Shown piece after piece: positions 8,696-13,900 of a stretch of 64,000 nucleotides of DNA. The stretch is from contig NC_002689.2 of assembly GCF_000011185.1 (NCBI RefSeq), positions 620,001-684,000 on the forward strand, read 5' to 3'. A program made the translations under genes and the position numbers. Within the stretch, counting starts at the first letter, position 1. Each line of letters begins with the position of its first letter. Source of the DNA: Thermoplasma volcanium GSS1. GTDB lineage: Archaea; Thermoplasmatota; Thermoplasmata; Thermoplasmatales; Thermoplasmataceae. A model generated the notes under the pieces. That model did no database searches and had not been told where the DNA came from. It saw only the letters and a program-made list of their open reading frames with translations.

Positions 8696-9193
8696 ATGGA
8701 AACTAAAAAACCGTCTGAATCTGAAACATTCGTTGAAAGGATGGTACTACCTGAGGATATGGATATTTATGAATACCTGTATGGTGGCAGATTAATGGAA
8801 TGGATAGACAACTGCGCATCCATAGTAGCTACGAAACACTGCAGAAAAAGAACTGTAACCGGGAGCATCGATTCCTTGTTCTTCCTTCTGCCTATACACT
8901 TAGGCGACATGGTACTGCTGCATGGCTATATAAATTATACCACTAAATCTACTATGGAGATAGAAATAGATGTAATAAAACAAGAGGGCCTTACAGGGAT
9001 AAGGAGATACGCAACAAAGGCTTACCTAACATATGTAGCTATTGATGCGGATGGTCGTCCAACGGAGATACCACAAATTGAGCCGGAAACCGATGATGAA
9101 AAGAGGAGATATGCAGAAGCAGAGAAAAGAGCCGAAGAGAGAAGAAAAAGGCTCGAGACAATTAAGCAACAGATCCTTAACTCACCACTATAA
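8696..9193 (+). CDS. Hotdog-fold acyl-CoA thioesterase
   Basis: This 165-residue protein has the acyl-CoA hydrolase pattern: VLPEDMDIYEYLYGGRLMEWID, where the long helix follows a conserved glycine-glycine, then FFLLPIHLGD and the KAYLTYVAID strand. The C-terminal 35 residues form a charged helix. It hydrolyses acyl-CoA thioesters in the cytoplasm. Archaeal membranes lack fatty acids, so the likely substrates come from fatty-acid or branched-chain degradation. It ends one base before the promoter of the secretion-like operon. Confidence 0.88.
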   Translation: METKKPSESETFVERMVLPEDMDIYEYLYGGRLMEWIDNCASIVATKHCRKRTVTGSIDSLFFLLPIHLGDMVLLHGYINYTTKSTMEIEIDVIKQEGLTGIRRYATKAYLTYVAIDADGRPTEIPQIEPETDDEKRRYAEAEKRAEERRKRLETIKQQILNSPL

Positions 9194-9202
9194 TTTTATA
9201 TA
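9194..9202 (+). promoter_or_regulatory. TATA box of the secretion-like operon
   Basis: TTTTATATA lies about 26 bases before the ATG at 9224, the spacing expected for an archaeal promoter driving a leaderless message. It suggests the three genes 9224-12449 are transcribed separately from the thioesterase gene. Confidence 0.6.
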
Positions 9203-9223
9203 TTTCTTGCATATGTTCTAATT

Positions 9224-9505
9224 ATGGTATCTATTCCAAGAATACCAATTACGTACATAGCTTCATATGGTACAAGTATCTCGTCAATATTATCGCGATT
9301 AGATACTATTGTGCTGTCGGTTTCTGCGGTAATTATATCTATACTCTGGATCCCAGTTGCACTTGAATTTTTTAGTTCAGATGAGAGTAAGCGTATTTCT
9401 GCAAGGACAAGATTAAAAAACGCCGCTATAGGTACATTCATATACATAATGGCGGTAAGCGGAATATTATATGCCTTAGTGAAATATATAATTACAGGAT
9501 CTTAG
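9224..9505 (+). CDS. Small two-helix membrane protein, VirB2/pilin-like (candidate)
   Basis: This 93-residue protein has two long hydrophobic helices (about 27-50 and 67-90) joined by a short polar, basic loop (SSDESKRISARTRLKN). This is the layout of VirB2/TrbC pilins and of the small CedA1-type proteins of archaeal DNA-import systems. No signal-peptidase site is obvious. It starts at an ATG 26 bases after a TATA box and is followed 23 bases later by the polytopic gene. The sequence is too short to assign by motif, so the call rests on topology and on the VirB6-like and VirB4-like genes next to it. Confidence 0.5.
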   Translation: MVSIPRIPITYIASYGTSISSILSRLDTIVLSVSAVIISILWIPVALEFFSSDESKRISARTRLKNAAIGTFIYIMAVSGILYALVKYIITGS

Positions 9506-9528
9506 AGAAATAAACCGAGGGCTTAAAG

Positions 9529-10443
9529 TTGAATCCCTTTCTCTCTGCGATACTCAGCATTGTAAATGCTATCGTCATCCTCTATACAGCTACCCTATCT
9601 CCGCTTTGGTACTATATAGTCTATTATGGGCTTAACCCAAAGTTCTCATATTCAATTATTTTGAAACCTCCTGGTTCATTCTACACTTTTTATAATTTTA
9701 TTTCCATAAACTTTTATACAGAAACGCTGACCATAGCTTCACTGATCTTCATCATTGCTATTTCCGCTATGATGATAATCTACGGTGTGAATCTTCTAAG
9801 AAGGGCTTTGCTAGCTTTATTGTCTATATCGCTTTACTTTGTCGCAGTTAGGGCCATGCTCGCTTTAGTATTGCTCTCGTATAGTATATATCTACCATTC
9901 TGGCATTTTGGCGGTATAAACTGGTTTTCATTTCTAAACGTTAATGGTTTCCATATGGATCAGGGTTCTGGAAATGCTTCTGGCGTCTTGAATTTTATAT
10001 TTTTATCCACCTATTTCTGGGCCCTCCTTGCATTATTGTCGATGTTAGTTTTCAGAGAAGCTGCAATGCTTTTGTTGGTCATCGTGATTCCGCTTTTCGT
10101 GGGTCTTTCCTTTCTCGACACTTTTAGAAAGGTCGCAATACGTCTTATTTCTCTCTTCGTAGAGCTCTCCTTTTTACCTGTATATGTACTCATCGATCTT
10201 TATTTGGCGCATGTATTCAGCTTCGACTTTATTCTTGAACTAGGAATAATTGCTATATCACCCGCTATACCCAGTATCCTCTTTGCAGAATCTGTGCTTT
10301 TGGGTTTCCCATTGAAAATCTTAGATCCAATGAAAATTTACGGATTGGCTTCTCTTCCGCTCGAGAAGATGGCTAAGAATGTTGATAGGTTAGATTGGTC
10401 TGAGCATATGCGATCTGAATTCGACTACAGGAGAGAAGATTGA
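9529..10443 (+). CDS. Polytopic membrane protein, VirB6/CedA-like (candidate)
   Basis: This 304-residue protein has about seven hydrophobic segments and a short hydrophilic C terminus. The order and size match VirB6/TrbL-type channel components and CedA of the crenarchaeal DNA importer, which vary widely in sequence. The start is TTG at 9529, preceded by a GAGGG site. It overlaps the ATPase gene by four bases, so the two are translationally coupled. I cannot see a sequence motif that proves the family. Without its neighbours it would be called a hypothetical membrane protein. Confidence 0.5.
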   Translation: MNPFLSAILSIVNAIVILYTATLSPLWYYIVYYGLNPKFSYSIILKPPGSFYTFYNFISINFYTETLTIASLIFIIAISAMMIIYGVNLLRRALLALLSISLYFVAVRAMLALVLLSYSIYLPFWHFGGINWFSFLNVNGFHMDQGSGNASGVLNFIFLSTYFWALLALLSMLVFREAAMLLLVIVIPLFVGLSFLDTFRKVAIRLISLFVELSFLPVYVLIDLYLAHVFSFDFILELGIIAISPAIPSILFAESVLLGFPLKILDPMKIYGLASLPLEKMAKNVDRLDWSEHMRSEFDYRRED

Positions 10444-12449
10444 AAGCAGAGTATATGCATACAGATAATAACAATTCGAGGAAAACATCGGATAATAGAT
10501 ATGATAACGTTAGTGTACCTCGAAATGTACTATTATATGTACCACGTGTTTATGGAATTCCATCGGAATTTCTCCTGGTACTCGCTTTTTCGTCCTTTAT
10601 TTTTCTTGTTCTATTTTATTTAATAGGTCTCTATTCACTTCTTTCGTTTCTAATACCCGTGGTAGTCGAAATAAATAGGAAACCGTCCAATAGGGTAAAG
10701 CAATACTTGACAAAATATACAGAAAAAATTTTGCAACGCCTTAGAAAAAGTAGCAAAACATCAGTTTCTCGCAACGGAAAATATGTAATAGTAAAAAACG
10801 GCAGCGCCAAAGGTATAATTATAAAGATAAGTACAGAATACGATAATGGAGAAGCCTCATTTAATAAGTTGTCTAAAGAAATTGCAAGTCTATTCAAAGG
10901 CATAGAGGCAAGCTTAACGTTTTATGCGATTCCAGAGAAAGTTGATGTTCGTATACCCTGTTATAATAAAGATGGCCTATTTGGAGATTTCATTTATTAT
11001 AGGATGTTTCTCGTTCTGTGGAAGCGGTTTGTAAACGAGGAGCTTCTGTTTGACATTATAAATAAATCTCAGCATCGATCTTCGTCCATCAAATTAGATG
11101 CAAATTTATCAAGCGAAGAATTTGGCCTCCTAAAAGACTTGTTTGATAAAAACTACACTAGGATGGGTTCTTACTATAGCTCCAAGAAGCCATTTACTAT
11201 TTTCAAAGTCATGGATGCCAACAAGACAATGTTTCCAGGTTATTGTGAAGCAATAGAACTTTCTAAAACAAATTGCGTAGTTAAATTCTCAATGATAAAA
11301 GCCCCCTCAAACTATACGGGCATAATATCGAGAAAGTTGGCAGACATTCAATACGAGATCAAGGAAAGGGAAAAGAGAGGAGAAAAACCCGAATATCTCC
11401 AAAATTTAGTCGAATCTGCTTCAAGAATAATTGAGAAAGGAAGATCCCCTGGTAATTACATAGTACTTACGGATCTATCCTTTTTAGTATACTCAAACAA
11501 TTCGATGAACCTTCCAAGAGATGCCAATTTATTTAACGATTATATAAGAATGGCTGGGCTAGCAGTTAGAAATGAAACATCATACAAAGTATTATCGGCA
11601 AAACATTTTCTTGATTTTTCTAATTTAGGAAAAGCGTATCCAATGGACCTTCTCTCAGCTGCAAGCATGACCCCCATTTATTTCTCTAAAGAGGAGACGA
11701 AAGGCATTTTTATTGGTTTCAACGAGGCAAACGGTAAACCTTTCTTTTTTGACCCATTCTCAGCGCCATCATATAATATAATTGTAACTGGCGAAACTGG
11801 ATCCGGAAAATCTTATTTTTCTAGAATACTTGCAATATCGTTTGTTGAAGATATGGATAGATCTGTAGTTATTTTAGACCCGCTGGATGAATACAGCTGT
11901 GATTGTTTTAATGCGAGTTGCAGTGTGTTGGATCTTCGGAAGTCTATCTTTTTAGATGCTTTAAAGACGGGCGGAAACTATGAAGAAGGAAAGAGCTCTC
12001 GTACTAAAGTTGTTATAATAAAGTTCGAAGGTAGAGATAAAAATAAACTCAGCAGCATAATGGATTATATACAGGCATACTTTCGTTCAGTGGACGGATT
12101 AAAGATGGTGCTTATAGAAGAAGCTAGCATCTTATCAAAAGATCGAGAAATCGGCTTATTGCTGGAAAATCTCACGAGGCAATCCAGGCACTTTAACACT
12201 TCTGTAGTTATAGTTTCCCAGAGCATAAACGATGTAAAAGAAAGATACGCTATATTTGAAAATAGCGTTCACAGCTTTATGTTTAGGACAAAGATAAAGC
12301 CCACTGCGAATACTGTCTTGTCTTCTGAAGATTATGATCTTTCCAAATTGGCTGGTGGCAAAGGTATGTCTTATTCAGAGTGCATCTACGTTTTTGGTGG
12401 GGCTTCTAAGAAGATATTGGTACCGAAAAGAGAACATCAACTTTATTAG
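10440..12449 (+). CDS. VirB4/HerA-superfamily ATPase with N-terminal membrane helices (CedB-like)
   Basis: This 669-residue protein begins with a hydrophilic stretch and two closely packed hydrophobic segments at about 43-77. It continues with a VirB4-like middle domain and ends in a RecA-like motor. Walker A is GETGSGKS at 451-458, and the Walker B strand ends in LIEEAS at 558-563. The downstream block LTRQSRHFNTSVVIVSQ resembles the sensor motif of VirB4, TraC and HerA. Fusion of VirB3-like helices to VirB4 is known in secretion systems, and CedB also carries membrane helices. The start is TTG at 10440, overlapping the previous stop, with GGAGAG as SD. It would act as a membrane-bound DNA or pilin-assembly motor. 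Confidence 0.8.
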   Translation: MKAEYMHTDNNNSRKTSDNRYDNVSVPRNVLLYVPRVYGIPSEFLLVLAFSSFIFLVLFYLIGLYSLLSFLIPVVVEINRKPSNRVKQYLTKYTEKILQRLRKSSKTSVSRNGKYVIVKNGSAKGIIIKISTEYDNGEASFNKLSKEIASLFKGIEASLTFYAIPEKVDVRIPCYNKDGLFGDFIYYRMFLVLWKRFVNEELLFDIINKSQHRSSSIKLDANLSSEEFGLLKDLFDKNYTRMGSYYSSKKPFTIFKVMDANKTMFPGYCEAIELSKTNCVVKFSMIKAPSNYTGIISRKLADIQYEIKEREKRGEKPEYLQNLVESASRIIEKGRSPGNYIVLTDLSFLVYSNNSMNLPRDANLFNDYIRMAGLAVRNETSYKVLSAKHFLDFSNLGKAYPMDLLSAASMTPIYFSKEETKGIFIGFNEANGKPFFFDPFSAPSYNIIVTGETGSGKSYFSRILAISFVEDMDRSVVILDPLDEYSCDCFNASCSVLDLRKSIFLDALKTGGNYEEGKSSRTKVVIIKFEGRDKNKLSSIMDYIQAYFRSVDGLKMVLIEEASILSKDREIGLLLENLTRQSRHFNTSVVIVSQSINDVKERYAIFENSVHSFMFRTKIKPTANTVLSSEDYDLSKLAGGKGMSYSECIYVFGGASKKILVPKREHQLY

Positions 12450-12515: not shown

Positions 12516-12707
12516 TCAGGACGCAGTTGATTCTTCATCCTTTACTGTTGTTAGCATTATACCAAGTATACCAAAAACTACAAGCACTATTGTGAACGAG
12601 TAAAGACCTATGTCGAACCAAGTGTCATACATAATCGACCAGCCTAAATAAAAGGCTACTCCTATAAAAAGCATTGCAAAACCAAGTACACGAATGAAAT
12701 TTGGCAT
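12516..12707 (-). CDS. Small two-helix membrane protein
   Basis: This 63-residue protein has two hydrophobic helices (about 5-27 and 33-53) and an acidic tail (VKDEESTAS). It is convergent with the secretion-like operon and divergent from the actin-like gene. Function unknown. Coding is supported by clean helix boundaries with charged ends and by the promoter-like AT-rich region upstream. An inverted repeat lies 42 bases upstream of its start. Confidence 0.55.
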   Translation of the reverse strand: MPNFIRVLGFAMLFIGVAFYLGWSIMYDTWFDIGLYSFTIVLVVFGILGIMLTTVKDEESTAS

Positions 12708-12919: not shown

Positions 12920-13900
12920 TTGGTTGTAATAGGATTAGATGTTGGATATGGAGACACTAAAGTAATTGGTATTGATGGAAAAAGAATAATATTCCCATCA
13001 AGGTGGGCAGTAACAGAAACTGAAAGCTGGGGAATAGGTGGCAAGATACCTGTACTGAGCACAGATGGTGGTCAAACCAAATTTATATACGGCAGGTATG
13101 CAAGTGGAAATAACATAAGAGTTCCGCAGGGAGATGGGCGATTAGCCAGTAAAGAGGCTTTTCCGCTCATAGCAGCTGCACTATGGGAATCAGGAATACA
13201 CAACGACGGTAGTCCTGTTGACCTAGTGATAGGGAGCGGTACTCCGCTTGGTACCTTCGATCTTGAAGTTAAGGCAGCTAAGGAAGCTTTAGAGAATAAG
13301 ATCCTAACAGTGACAGGTCCAGAGGGTGAAGTAAGGCAATACAACGTAACCAGATTGATAATGAGACCTCAGGGAGTTGGAGCTGCCCTTTACCTGTTAA
13401 ACCAGGGAATAATAGAACAGCAGCCTGGATATGGTGTAGTGATCGATGTAGGTTCTAGGACAACAGATGTGCTCACCATAAACCTGATGGATATGGAACC
13501 AGTAGTAGAACTTTCGTTCAGCCTGCAGATAGGTGTAGGTGATGCTATATCTAACTTGTCAAGGAAAATTGCAAAGGAGACTGGCTTCGTTGTGCCGTTT
13601 GATCTAGCTCAGGAGGCCCTAAGCAAGCCGGTTATGTTCAGGCAGAAACAAGTTGGAGGCCCGGAAGTGGCAGGTCCAATTTTGGAGGATTTGGCTAACA
13701 GGATAATCGAGAACATAAGGTTGAACCTCCGGGGCGAAGTTGATAGGATAACATCTTTGATTCCTGTTGGAGGAGGTGCCAATCTTATAGGAGACAGGTT
13801 CGATGAGATAGCTCCTGGAACGACAGTAAGAATAAAGCCCGAAGACCTTCAGTTTGCCAATGCATTGGGATACAGAGATGCTGCCGAAAGATCGATGTAA
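12920..13900 (+). CDS. Actin/ParM-like filament protein (Ta0583 type)
   Basis: This 326-residue protein is recognisably the Thermoplasma actin homologue described from T. acidophilum as Ta0583, an ATPase whose structure resembles bacterial plasmid-segregation ParM. The actin-fold phosphate loops are visible: phosphate 1 in GLDVGYGDTKVI (residues 5-16), phosphate 2 in VVIDVGSRTTDVLTI, and the adenosine motif in IPVGGGANLIG. The start is TTG at 12920 after AAGGTGATC. A small RHH-like gene begins eight bases after its stop, as parR follows parM on plasmids. Cellular role unproven: shape, segregation and plasmid ancestry have all been considered for this family. Confidence 0.93.
   Translation: MVVIGLDVGYGDTKVIGIDGKRIIFPSRWAVTETESWGIGGKIPVLSTDGGQTKFIYGRYASGNNIRVPQGDGRLASKEAFPLIAAALWESGIHNDGSPVDLVIGSGTPLGTFDLEVKAAKEALENKILTVTGPEGEVRQYNVTRLIMRPQGVGAALYLLNQGIIEQQPGYGVVIDVGSRTTDVLTINLMDMEPVVELSFSLQIGVGDAISNLSRKIAKETGFVVPFDLAQEALSKPVMFRQKQVGGPEVAGPILEDLANRIIENIRLNLRGEVDRITSLIPVGGGANLIGDRFDEIAPGTTVRIKPEDLQFANALGYRDAAERSM

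Follow-up and report, generated by a model that had tools for sequence, protein, structure and literature searches.

Three open reading frames follow one another on the forward strand between positions 9224 and 12449 of the window, the 64-kb stretch of DNA that was analysed, which covers positions 620001-684000 of a single-contig Thermoplasma genome of 1,584,804 bp (Table 1). An initial annotation, made from the DNA letters, had described three coupled genes at precisely these positions, and the reading frames, a gap of 23 nt between the pilin gene and the VirB6-like gene and an overlap of 4 nt (TTGA) between the latter and the VirB4 gene all agree with that description. The TATA-like element 24 nt before the first ATG makes a leaderless transcript starting at the pilin plausible, and this element is probably the promoter of the operon. 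TATA-like stretches are also found at a comparable distance from the pilin start in several relatives.

The flanks of the operon are largely those of housekeeping genes, with a thioesterase upstream in most genera, purD in other Thermoplasma species, and Lhr downstream within the genus. The convergent two-TM protein of family F3 keeps its placement in most Thermoplasmataceae loci and shows 75-81% identity within the genus. A gene for a ParM-like, plasmid-type actin lies 470 nt downstream of the operon and is 95% identical in the genus; it was considered as a functional partner and rejected, as its linkage to the operon is confined to the genus.

Table 1. Features of the operon and its immediate flanks, in window coordinates
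Feature	Position	Strand	Basis or remark
Acyl-CoA thioesterase (PF03061)	8696..9193	+	Upstream conserved housekeeping flank, outside the machine
TATA-like element TTTATATATT	9195..9204	+	Read in the sequence; ~24 nt upstream of the pilin ATG
VirB2-like T4SS pilin, 93 aa, 2 TM	9224..9505	+	PF18895 family, hhalign, AlphaFold hairpin
Polytopic membrane protein, 304 aa, 7 predicted TM	9529..10443	+	VirB6-like, position and topology
VirB4-type conjugation ATPase, 669 aa	10440..12449	+	NCBIfam models, tree
VirB4 N-terminal membrane hairpin	10521..10724	+	Hydrophobic segment at residue ~44
Walker A GETGSGKS, residues 451-458	11790..11813	+	Core invariant in 20 homologues
Walker B region VLIEEA, residues 557-562	12108..12125	+	Sequence and homologue alignment
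63-aa two-TM protein, family F3	12516..12707	-	Convergent neighbour, conserved

The three encoded proteins

The first product had been annotated as a two-helix, VirB2-like pilin with a basic loop, and this view is borne out. It comprises two long helices separated by a short basic loop with a net charge of +3, it has no signal peptide, and AlphaFold models it as a hairpin (pLDDT 75). The window protein matches the Pfam family PF18895 (T4SS_pilin) at E 3.4e-4, which is below the curated cut-off, and the family matches all 20 aligned homologues, the best at E 6.8e-7. When a profile built from 39 homologues was compared by hhalign with PF18895-type pilins from Thermoproteota, the two aligned over 82 columns with P 87% and E 4e-6, against 0.3% in the reversed-sequence control of the same comparison. 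By these profile matches the protein is a VirB2-type member of the T4SS pilin superfamily; PF18895 also serves as the VirB2 profile in PMC12102498. A profile search of the PDB with the pilin alignment returned nothing relevant, and Foldseek with the hairpin, a poorly informative query, gave no significant match and no VirB2 among the matches listed.

The second product was originally called a seven-helix VirB6/CedA-like protein. Seven hydrophobic segments are present, and homologues occupy the identical position in all loci examined, so that the comparison with VirB6 stands on position and topology only; the comparison with CedA does not, similarity to that protein being at background level by both hhalign and hmmsearch. 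Profile searches of Pfam, NCBIfam and the PDB gave no match. The AlphaFold model is poor and of low confidence, and Foldseek with this model produced no significant match, with no VirB6 among the matches listed. The best match of the protein's profile, a weak one, is the polytopic protein of a monoderm conjugation locus from Bacillota.

In the third product the Walker A motif lies at the residues at which it had been read previously. Among NCBIfam models the window ATPase is matched best by TIGR02746 TraC (2e-15), ahead of CedB (8.7e-7) and HerA (1.2e-4). All 20 homologues match conju_CD1110 (best 1.7e-62) and TraC, and 19 of them match VirB4_CagE; across this set the VirB4 models match 18-20 members and the HerA model four. 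A membrane hairpin is found within the first ~95 residues of the window protein; in several genera, and in other families as well, a gene of its own encodes this hairpin and a portion of VirB4's N-terminal domain. Pfam matches to PrgI, VirB3 and TcpE are weak and confined to a few homologues, with none for the window protein; taken with the gene order of a Bacillota plasmid locus (pilin, polytopic protein, PrgI-like protein, VirB4) they suggest that the hairpin is probably a fused VirB3/PrgI/TcpE-like module.

Conservation of the operon and an unlinked candidate coupling ATPase

The pilin search found 71 of the 77 Thermoplasmataceae genomes and 92 of the 117 genomes of the order, with a single pilin per Thermoplasmataceae genome, the one exception probably being due to a duplicated contig. 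VirB4-like matches are present in 99 of the 117 genomes of the order, and the weak ones in other families may include related ATPases. Synteny was compared across Thermoplasmatales, as the initial annotation had proposed, and in all Thermoplasmataceae loci examined in full the order pilin, VirB6-like protein, VirB4 is kept and the housekeeping context conserved; several genera have VirB4 in two pieces. VirB4 and the VirB6-like protein evolve rapidly, being 32-37% identical between the window species and its congeners, against 67-73% for the pilin. The values of dN/dS, 0.05-0.18 for the pairs measured, indicate purifying selection, and together with the same order of homologues in every Thermoplasmataceae locus examined they argue that the operon is not a product of chance. 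The operon also occurs in f7, another family of the class; beyond f7 and the order, the pilin was not found in the phylum sample. Virus contigs contained no relatives of the operon, and plasmids and phages contained distant and partial ones only. The lack of close mobile relatives points to domestication, and by these comparisons the operon is a chromosomal, domesticated T4SS.

The pilins of families f2, f3 and f7, and most of those of f5, carry an additional N-terminal hydrophobic segment that looks by eye like a cleavable signal, and the Thermoplasmataceae pilins are without it. Since processing distinguishes TedC from the unprocessed CedA1 (PMC9905601), the loss of the segment in Thermoplasmataceae mirrors the contrast between Ced and Ted.

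No relaxase was seen in the neighbourhood of the operon, and no VirB8 was identified. The initial annotation also reported that no coupling protein was nearby, which is true within the window; however, the genome encodes a 632-aa VirD4/TraD-type ATPase at genome positions 369161-371059, 259 kb from the operon and unlinked to it, and the argument that the absence of a coupling protein is expected of an importer is thereby lost. This ATPase exceeds the Pfam cut-offs for TrwB_AAD_bind, TraG-D_C and T4SS-DNA_transf, and its best NCBIfam matches are CedD and VirD4. It is present in 58 of the 77 Thermoplasmataceae genomes. The 19 that are without it mostly bear the operon and include all ten genomes of one operon-keeping genus, and since the gene is in addition unlinked, it is not a strict requirement of the machine. 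The C-terminal domain, for which Pfam has no named family, contains D...E-x-E in all 21 aligned orthologues, nearly always as PD...ExExSD, followed by R...K, a motif that by eye resembles the core of the PD-(D/E)XK nucleases. The unlinked ATPase may be a coupling and DNA-processing partner of the operon. Family f5 has a 677-aa ATPase adjoining VirB4, which falls outside the group of the unlinked VirD4-type ATPase.

Proposed function

It is very likely that the operon encodes a machine derived from a T4SS. We also think it reasonably probable that the function of this machine is DNA exchange, with DNA as the substrate suggested by homology. Its retention in nearly all relatives makes it probable that the cells use this machine to exchange DNA, much as Sulfolobus uses Ced. 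Ced acts together with Ups pili, and DNA damage induces it. The operon would code for the inner-membrane core of a conjugation-type, single-membrane T4SS that has become domesticated. VirB2-like hairpins would reside in the membrane until they are extracted by a VirB4 hexamer, which would itself be anchored through its VirB3-like N-terminal hairpin beside the VirB6-like channel, and the extracted pilins would build a short lipid-lined pilus or channel. Single-stranded chromosomal DNA could then be passed between kin for recombinational repair, as Ced and Ted do, and in most of the family the VirD4/TraD-type ATPase with its PD...ExE domain may couple and process the DNA, replacing a relaxase.

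It could instead be that the T4SS-derived machine no longer moves DNA and acts as a short adhesive pilus, or as a device for protein secretion or contact. The retention of the operon in most of the 19 genomes without the VirD4-type ATPase and the want of a visible relaxase fit such a role, as does one family whose operon has beside it an Ig-repeat protein and a tandem array of genes in which the pilin domain bears a long extracellular extension; the T4SS of Patescibacteria, which is of the MPF_FATA type, is likewise thought to have been co-opted for other functions (PMC12102498). However, no fixed effector or adhesin gene is found beside the operon in the Thermoplasmataceae loci, Ced and Ted are also without a relaxase (PMC9905601) and yet Ced moves DNA (PMC11868833), and extensive recombination has been reported in Ferroplasma populations (PMC2704941). 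We consider a machine that has ceased to move DNA rather unlikely.

With DNA exchange as the preferred reading, a broader proposal can be put forward tentatively. The Thermoplasmata may own an ancestral, class-wide domesticated DNA-exchange T4SS that is independent of Ced and Ted, in which a coupling ATPase with a nuclease-like domain of its own replaces the relaxase, and the Thermoplasmataceae pilin may have lost its signal peptide secondarily and so converged on Ced.

Relationship to Ced and to other T4SSs

The initial annotation had seen in the operon the gene set of the Ced importer. Were it Ced itself, working in import only, the pilin would be CedA1, the seven-TM protein CedA and the ATPase CedB. 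Nine Ced loci retrieved from Thermoproteota share the same order, CedA1-CedA-(CedA2)-CedB, with CedA2 present in most, and an unprocessed two-TM pilin and a channel of 6-7 TM are common to both systems. The profiles of the window ATPase and CedB also match strongly (P 99.6%, E 9e-24, 355 columns), which places both in the VirB4/HerA superfamily. Nevertheless, in a tree of 55 taxa, with supports taken from the unrooted Newick string, HerA, the CedB group and the Thermoplasmataceae VirB4 form separate clades of 100% support. The window ATPase scores 27.9 bits against the CedB model, for which the cut-off is 700 bits; similarity to CedA is at background, and that of the pilin to CedA1 by hhalign is not above the reversed-sequence control. 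There is no CedA2, and the related families possess signal-peptide pilins and separate VirB3-like genes, as in bacterial monoderm T4SSs. Identity with Ced is thus very improbable and the proposed membership has to be given up, and import in particular is likewise unsupported; judged by these comparisons the operon is not orthologous to Ced, but may work like it. In the same tree the VirB4 proteins of families f2, f3 and f5 form a clade of 99% support, and the deep branching among VirB4 groups is weak (support no higher than 68%).

It is even less probable that the operon is what is left of an integrated conjugative element in decay. Its homology to conjugation modules and the ParM-like actin gene downstream might suggest one, but the single-copy, conserved context throughout the family, the purifying selection and the virus contigs without mobile relatives speak against it, the distribution refutes such an origin for the Thermoplasmataceae as a whole, and outside the genus the actin gene is unlinked. 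Finally, it is scarcely credible that the operon joins a repair helicase of the HerA type to two membrane proteins unrelated to it, for although the ATPase has DUF87/HerA Pfam matches, HerA stands in its own clade, the VirB4 models match far better than the HerA model and a genuine NurA-HerA-Mre11-Rad50 operon, named from reading the sequences, sits elsewhere in the same genome (~236-242 kb). Grouping of the ATPase with HerA/NurA helicases was part of what the initial annotation had named as refuting its reading; no such grouping is seen, and from tree and model scores the ATPase is a VirB4 and not a HerA.

Parts of this system have been recorded before in relatives. Golyshina et al. 2016 listed as T4SS components of Cuniculiplasma a VirB4 (arCOG04034), a multipass protein (arCOG05369) and a VirD4 (arCOG04816) (PMC5155288), which are very probably the same operon and VirD4-type gene; in the portion of that paper considered here no pilin is identified, and neither are conservation, domestication or a relation to Ced and Ted. 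A VirB4 has also been noted in E-plasma (PMC10354927), and in the portions of the two papers considered here the T4SS genes are not treated as a DNA-exchange system. In the literature cited, domesticated T4SSs for DNA exchange are restricted to Crenarchaeota (Ced and Ted), no machine is named for the heavy recombination of Thermoplasmatales such as Ferroplasma (PMC2704941), and Thermoplasma is not mentioned in PMC9905601 or PMC11868833. The three-gene operon and the candidate coupling ATPase offer a concrete candidate for DNA exchange in wall-less acidophiles that can be tested by knock-out, and the operon amounts to a minimal T4SS core (VirB2-B3/B4-B6) without outer-membrane or wall-spanning parts.

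Like the operon, Ced of Sulfolobales and Desulfurococcales (PMC9905601, PMC11868833) is chromosomal and domesticated, is ordered pilin, polytopic channel, ATPase, and has neither a relaxase nor a VirB8 that could be found. It differs in the features given above, and most Thermoplasmataceae genomes have, in contrast to it, a separate VirD4/TraD-type ATPase. Ted of Thermoproteales (TedC, TedA, TedB; PMC9905601) is likewise a minimal chromosomal set of VirB2, VirB6 and VirB4, but TedC has a signal peptide whereas the Thermoplasma pilin has none, and the ParA/VirC1, Rad50 and HerA-like genes often carried by Ted loci were not seen flanking the Thermoplasma operon; Ted is set apart here by its description. 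The monoderm MPF_FATA modules, with an Mbov_0395 pilin and a CD1110-type VirB4, resemble the operon in that the NCBIfam models matching its ATPase family best are CD1110 and Mbov_0397, and in the gene order of the Bacillota plasmid locus. In contrast to these modules, the Thermoplasma operon is chromosomal with no peptidoglycan hydrolase or relaxase nearby, its VirB3-like part is apparently fused to VirB4, and its VirB6-like protein is much smaller. Most likely, the operon represents a third archaeal domestication of a T4SS, derived separately from those that gave rise to Ced and Ted.

Neighbours of the operon

In the genus Thermoplasma a ParM/Ta0583-like actin, about 95% identical throughout the genus, lies within about 10 kb of the operon, but in other genera it is not linked to the operon. 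The gene for the 63-aa two-TM protein keeps its place as convergent neighbour in most members of the Thermoplasmataceae. Also, purD is whole in three Thermoplasma genomes, whereas in another, G098, two ORFs seem to make up the gene; the split appears to be a frameshift or sequence error.

Features and loci (L, fetched loci with their own coordinates; C1, T. volcanium genome contig; bare coordinates, window)
Feature	Position	Strand or orientation
63-aa two-TM protein	12516-12707	(-), convergent to operon
ParM/Ta0583-like actin	12920-13900	(+)
VirD4/TraD/CedD-like ATPase	L159:4161-6059 = C1 369161-371059, outside window	(-) in L159
Split VirB4	L036, L038, L039, L042, L043, L044, L048, L158	
f3 tandem pilin-domain genes and Ig-repeat protein gene	L152:6826-11685; L145:3926-7675	
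f5 DUF87/AAA_10 ATPase, 677 aa	L141:6832-8865; equivalents in L142-L144	
Two-ORF purD, G098	L032:8147-9482	
Thermoproteota clusters with CedB-like ATPase	L085-L095	

Variation in operon architecture

In several genera VirB4 is encoded by two genes, one for the membrane N-terminal part (about 230-280 aa) and one for the ATPase part (about 440-550 aa). The related family f3 has four to five pilin-domain genes in tandem, some of whose products carry long extracellular N-terminal extensions. It also encodes, beside the operon, an Ig-repeat protein of about 744 aa that has a TM at its C-terminus as well as a winged-helix-like tail. In family f5 the DUF87/AAA_10 ATPase gene, a long branch, directly follows VirB4.

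ATPases beyond the operon

The unlinked VirD4/TraD/CedD-like ATPase has a conserved C-terminal PD...ExE motif. Its gene adjoins a 206-aa partner gene and, in T. volcanium, is divergent from one AAA (Vps4/CdvC-like) gene and one CdvB-like ESCRT gene. In other Thermoproteota clusters, apart from the Ced loci, a CedB-like ATPase occurs together with a second ATPase or a protein of about 710-810 aa, and some of these clusters also encode a 6-9-TM protein.
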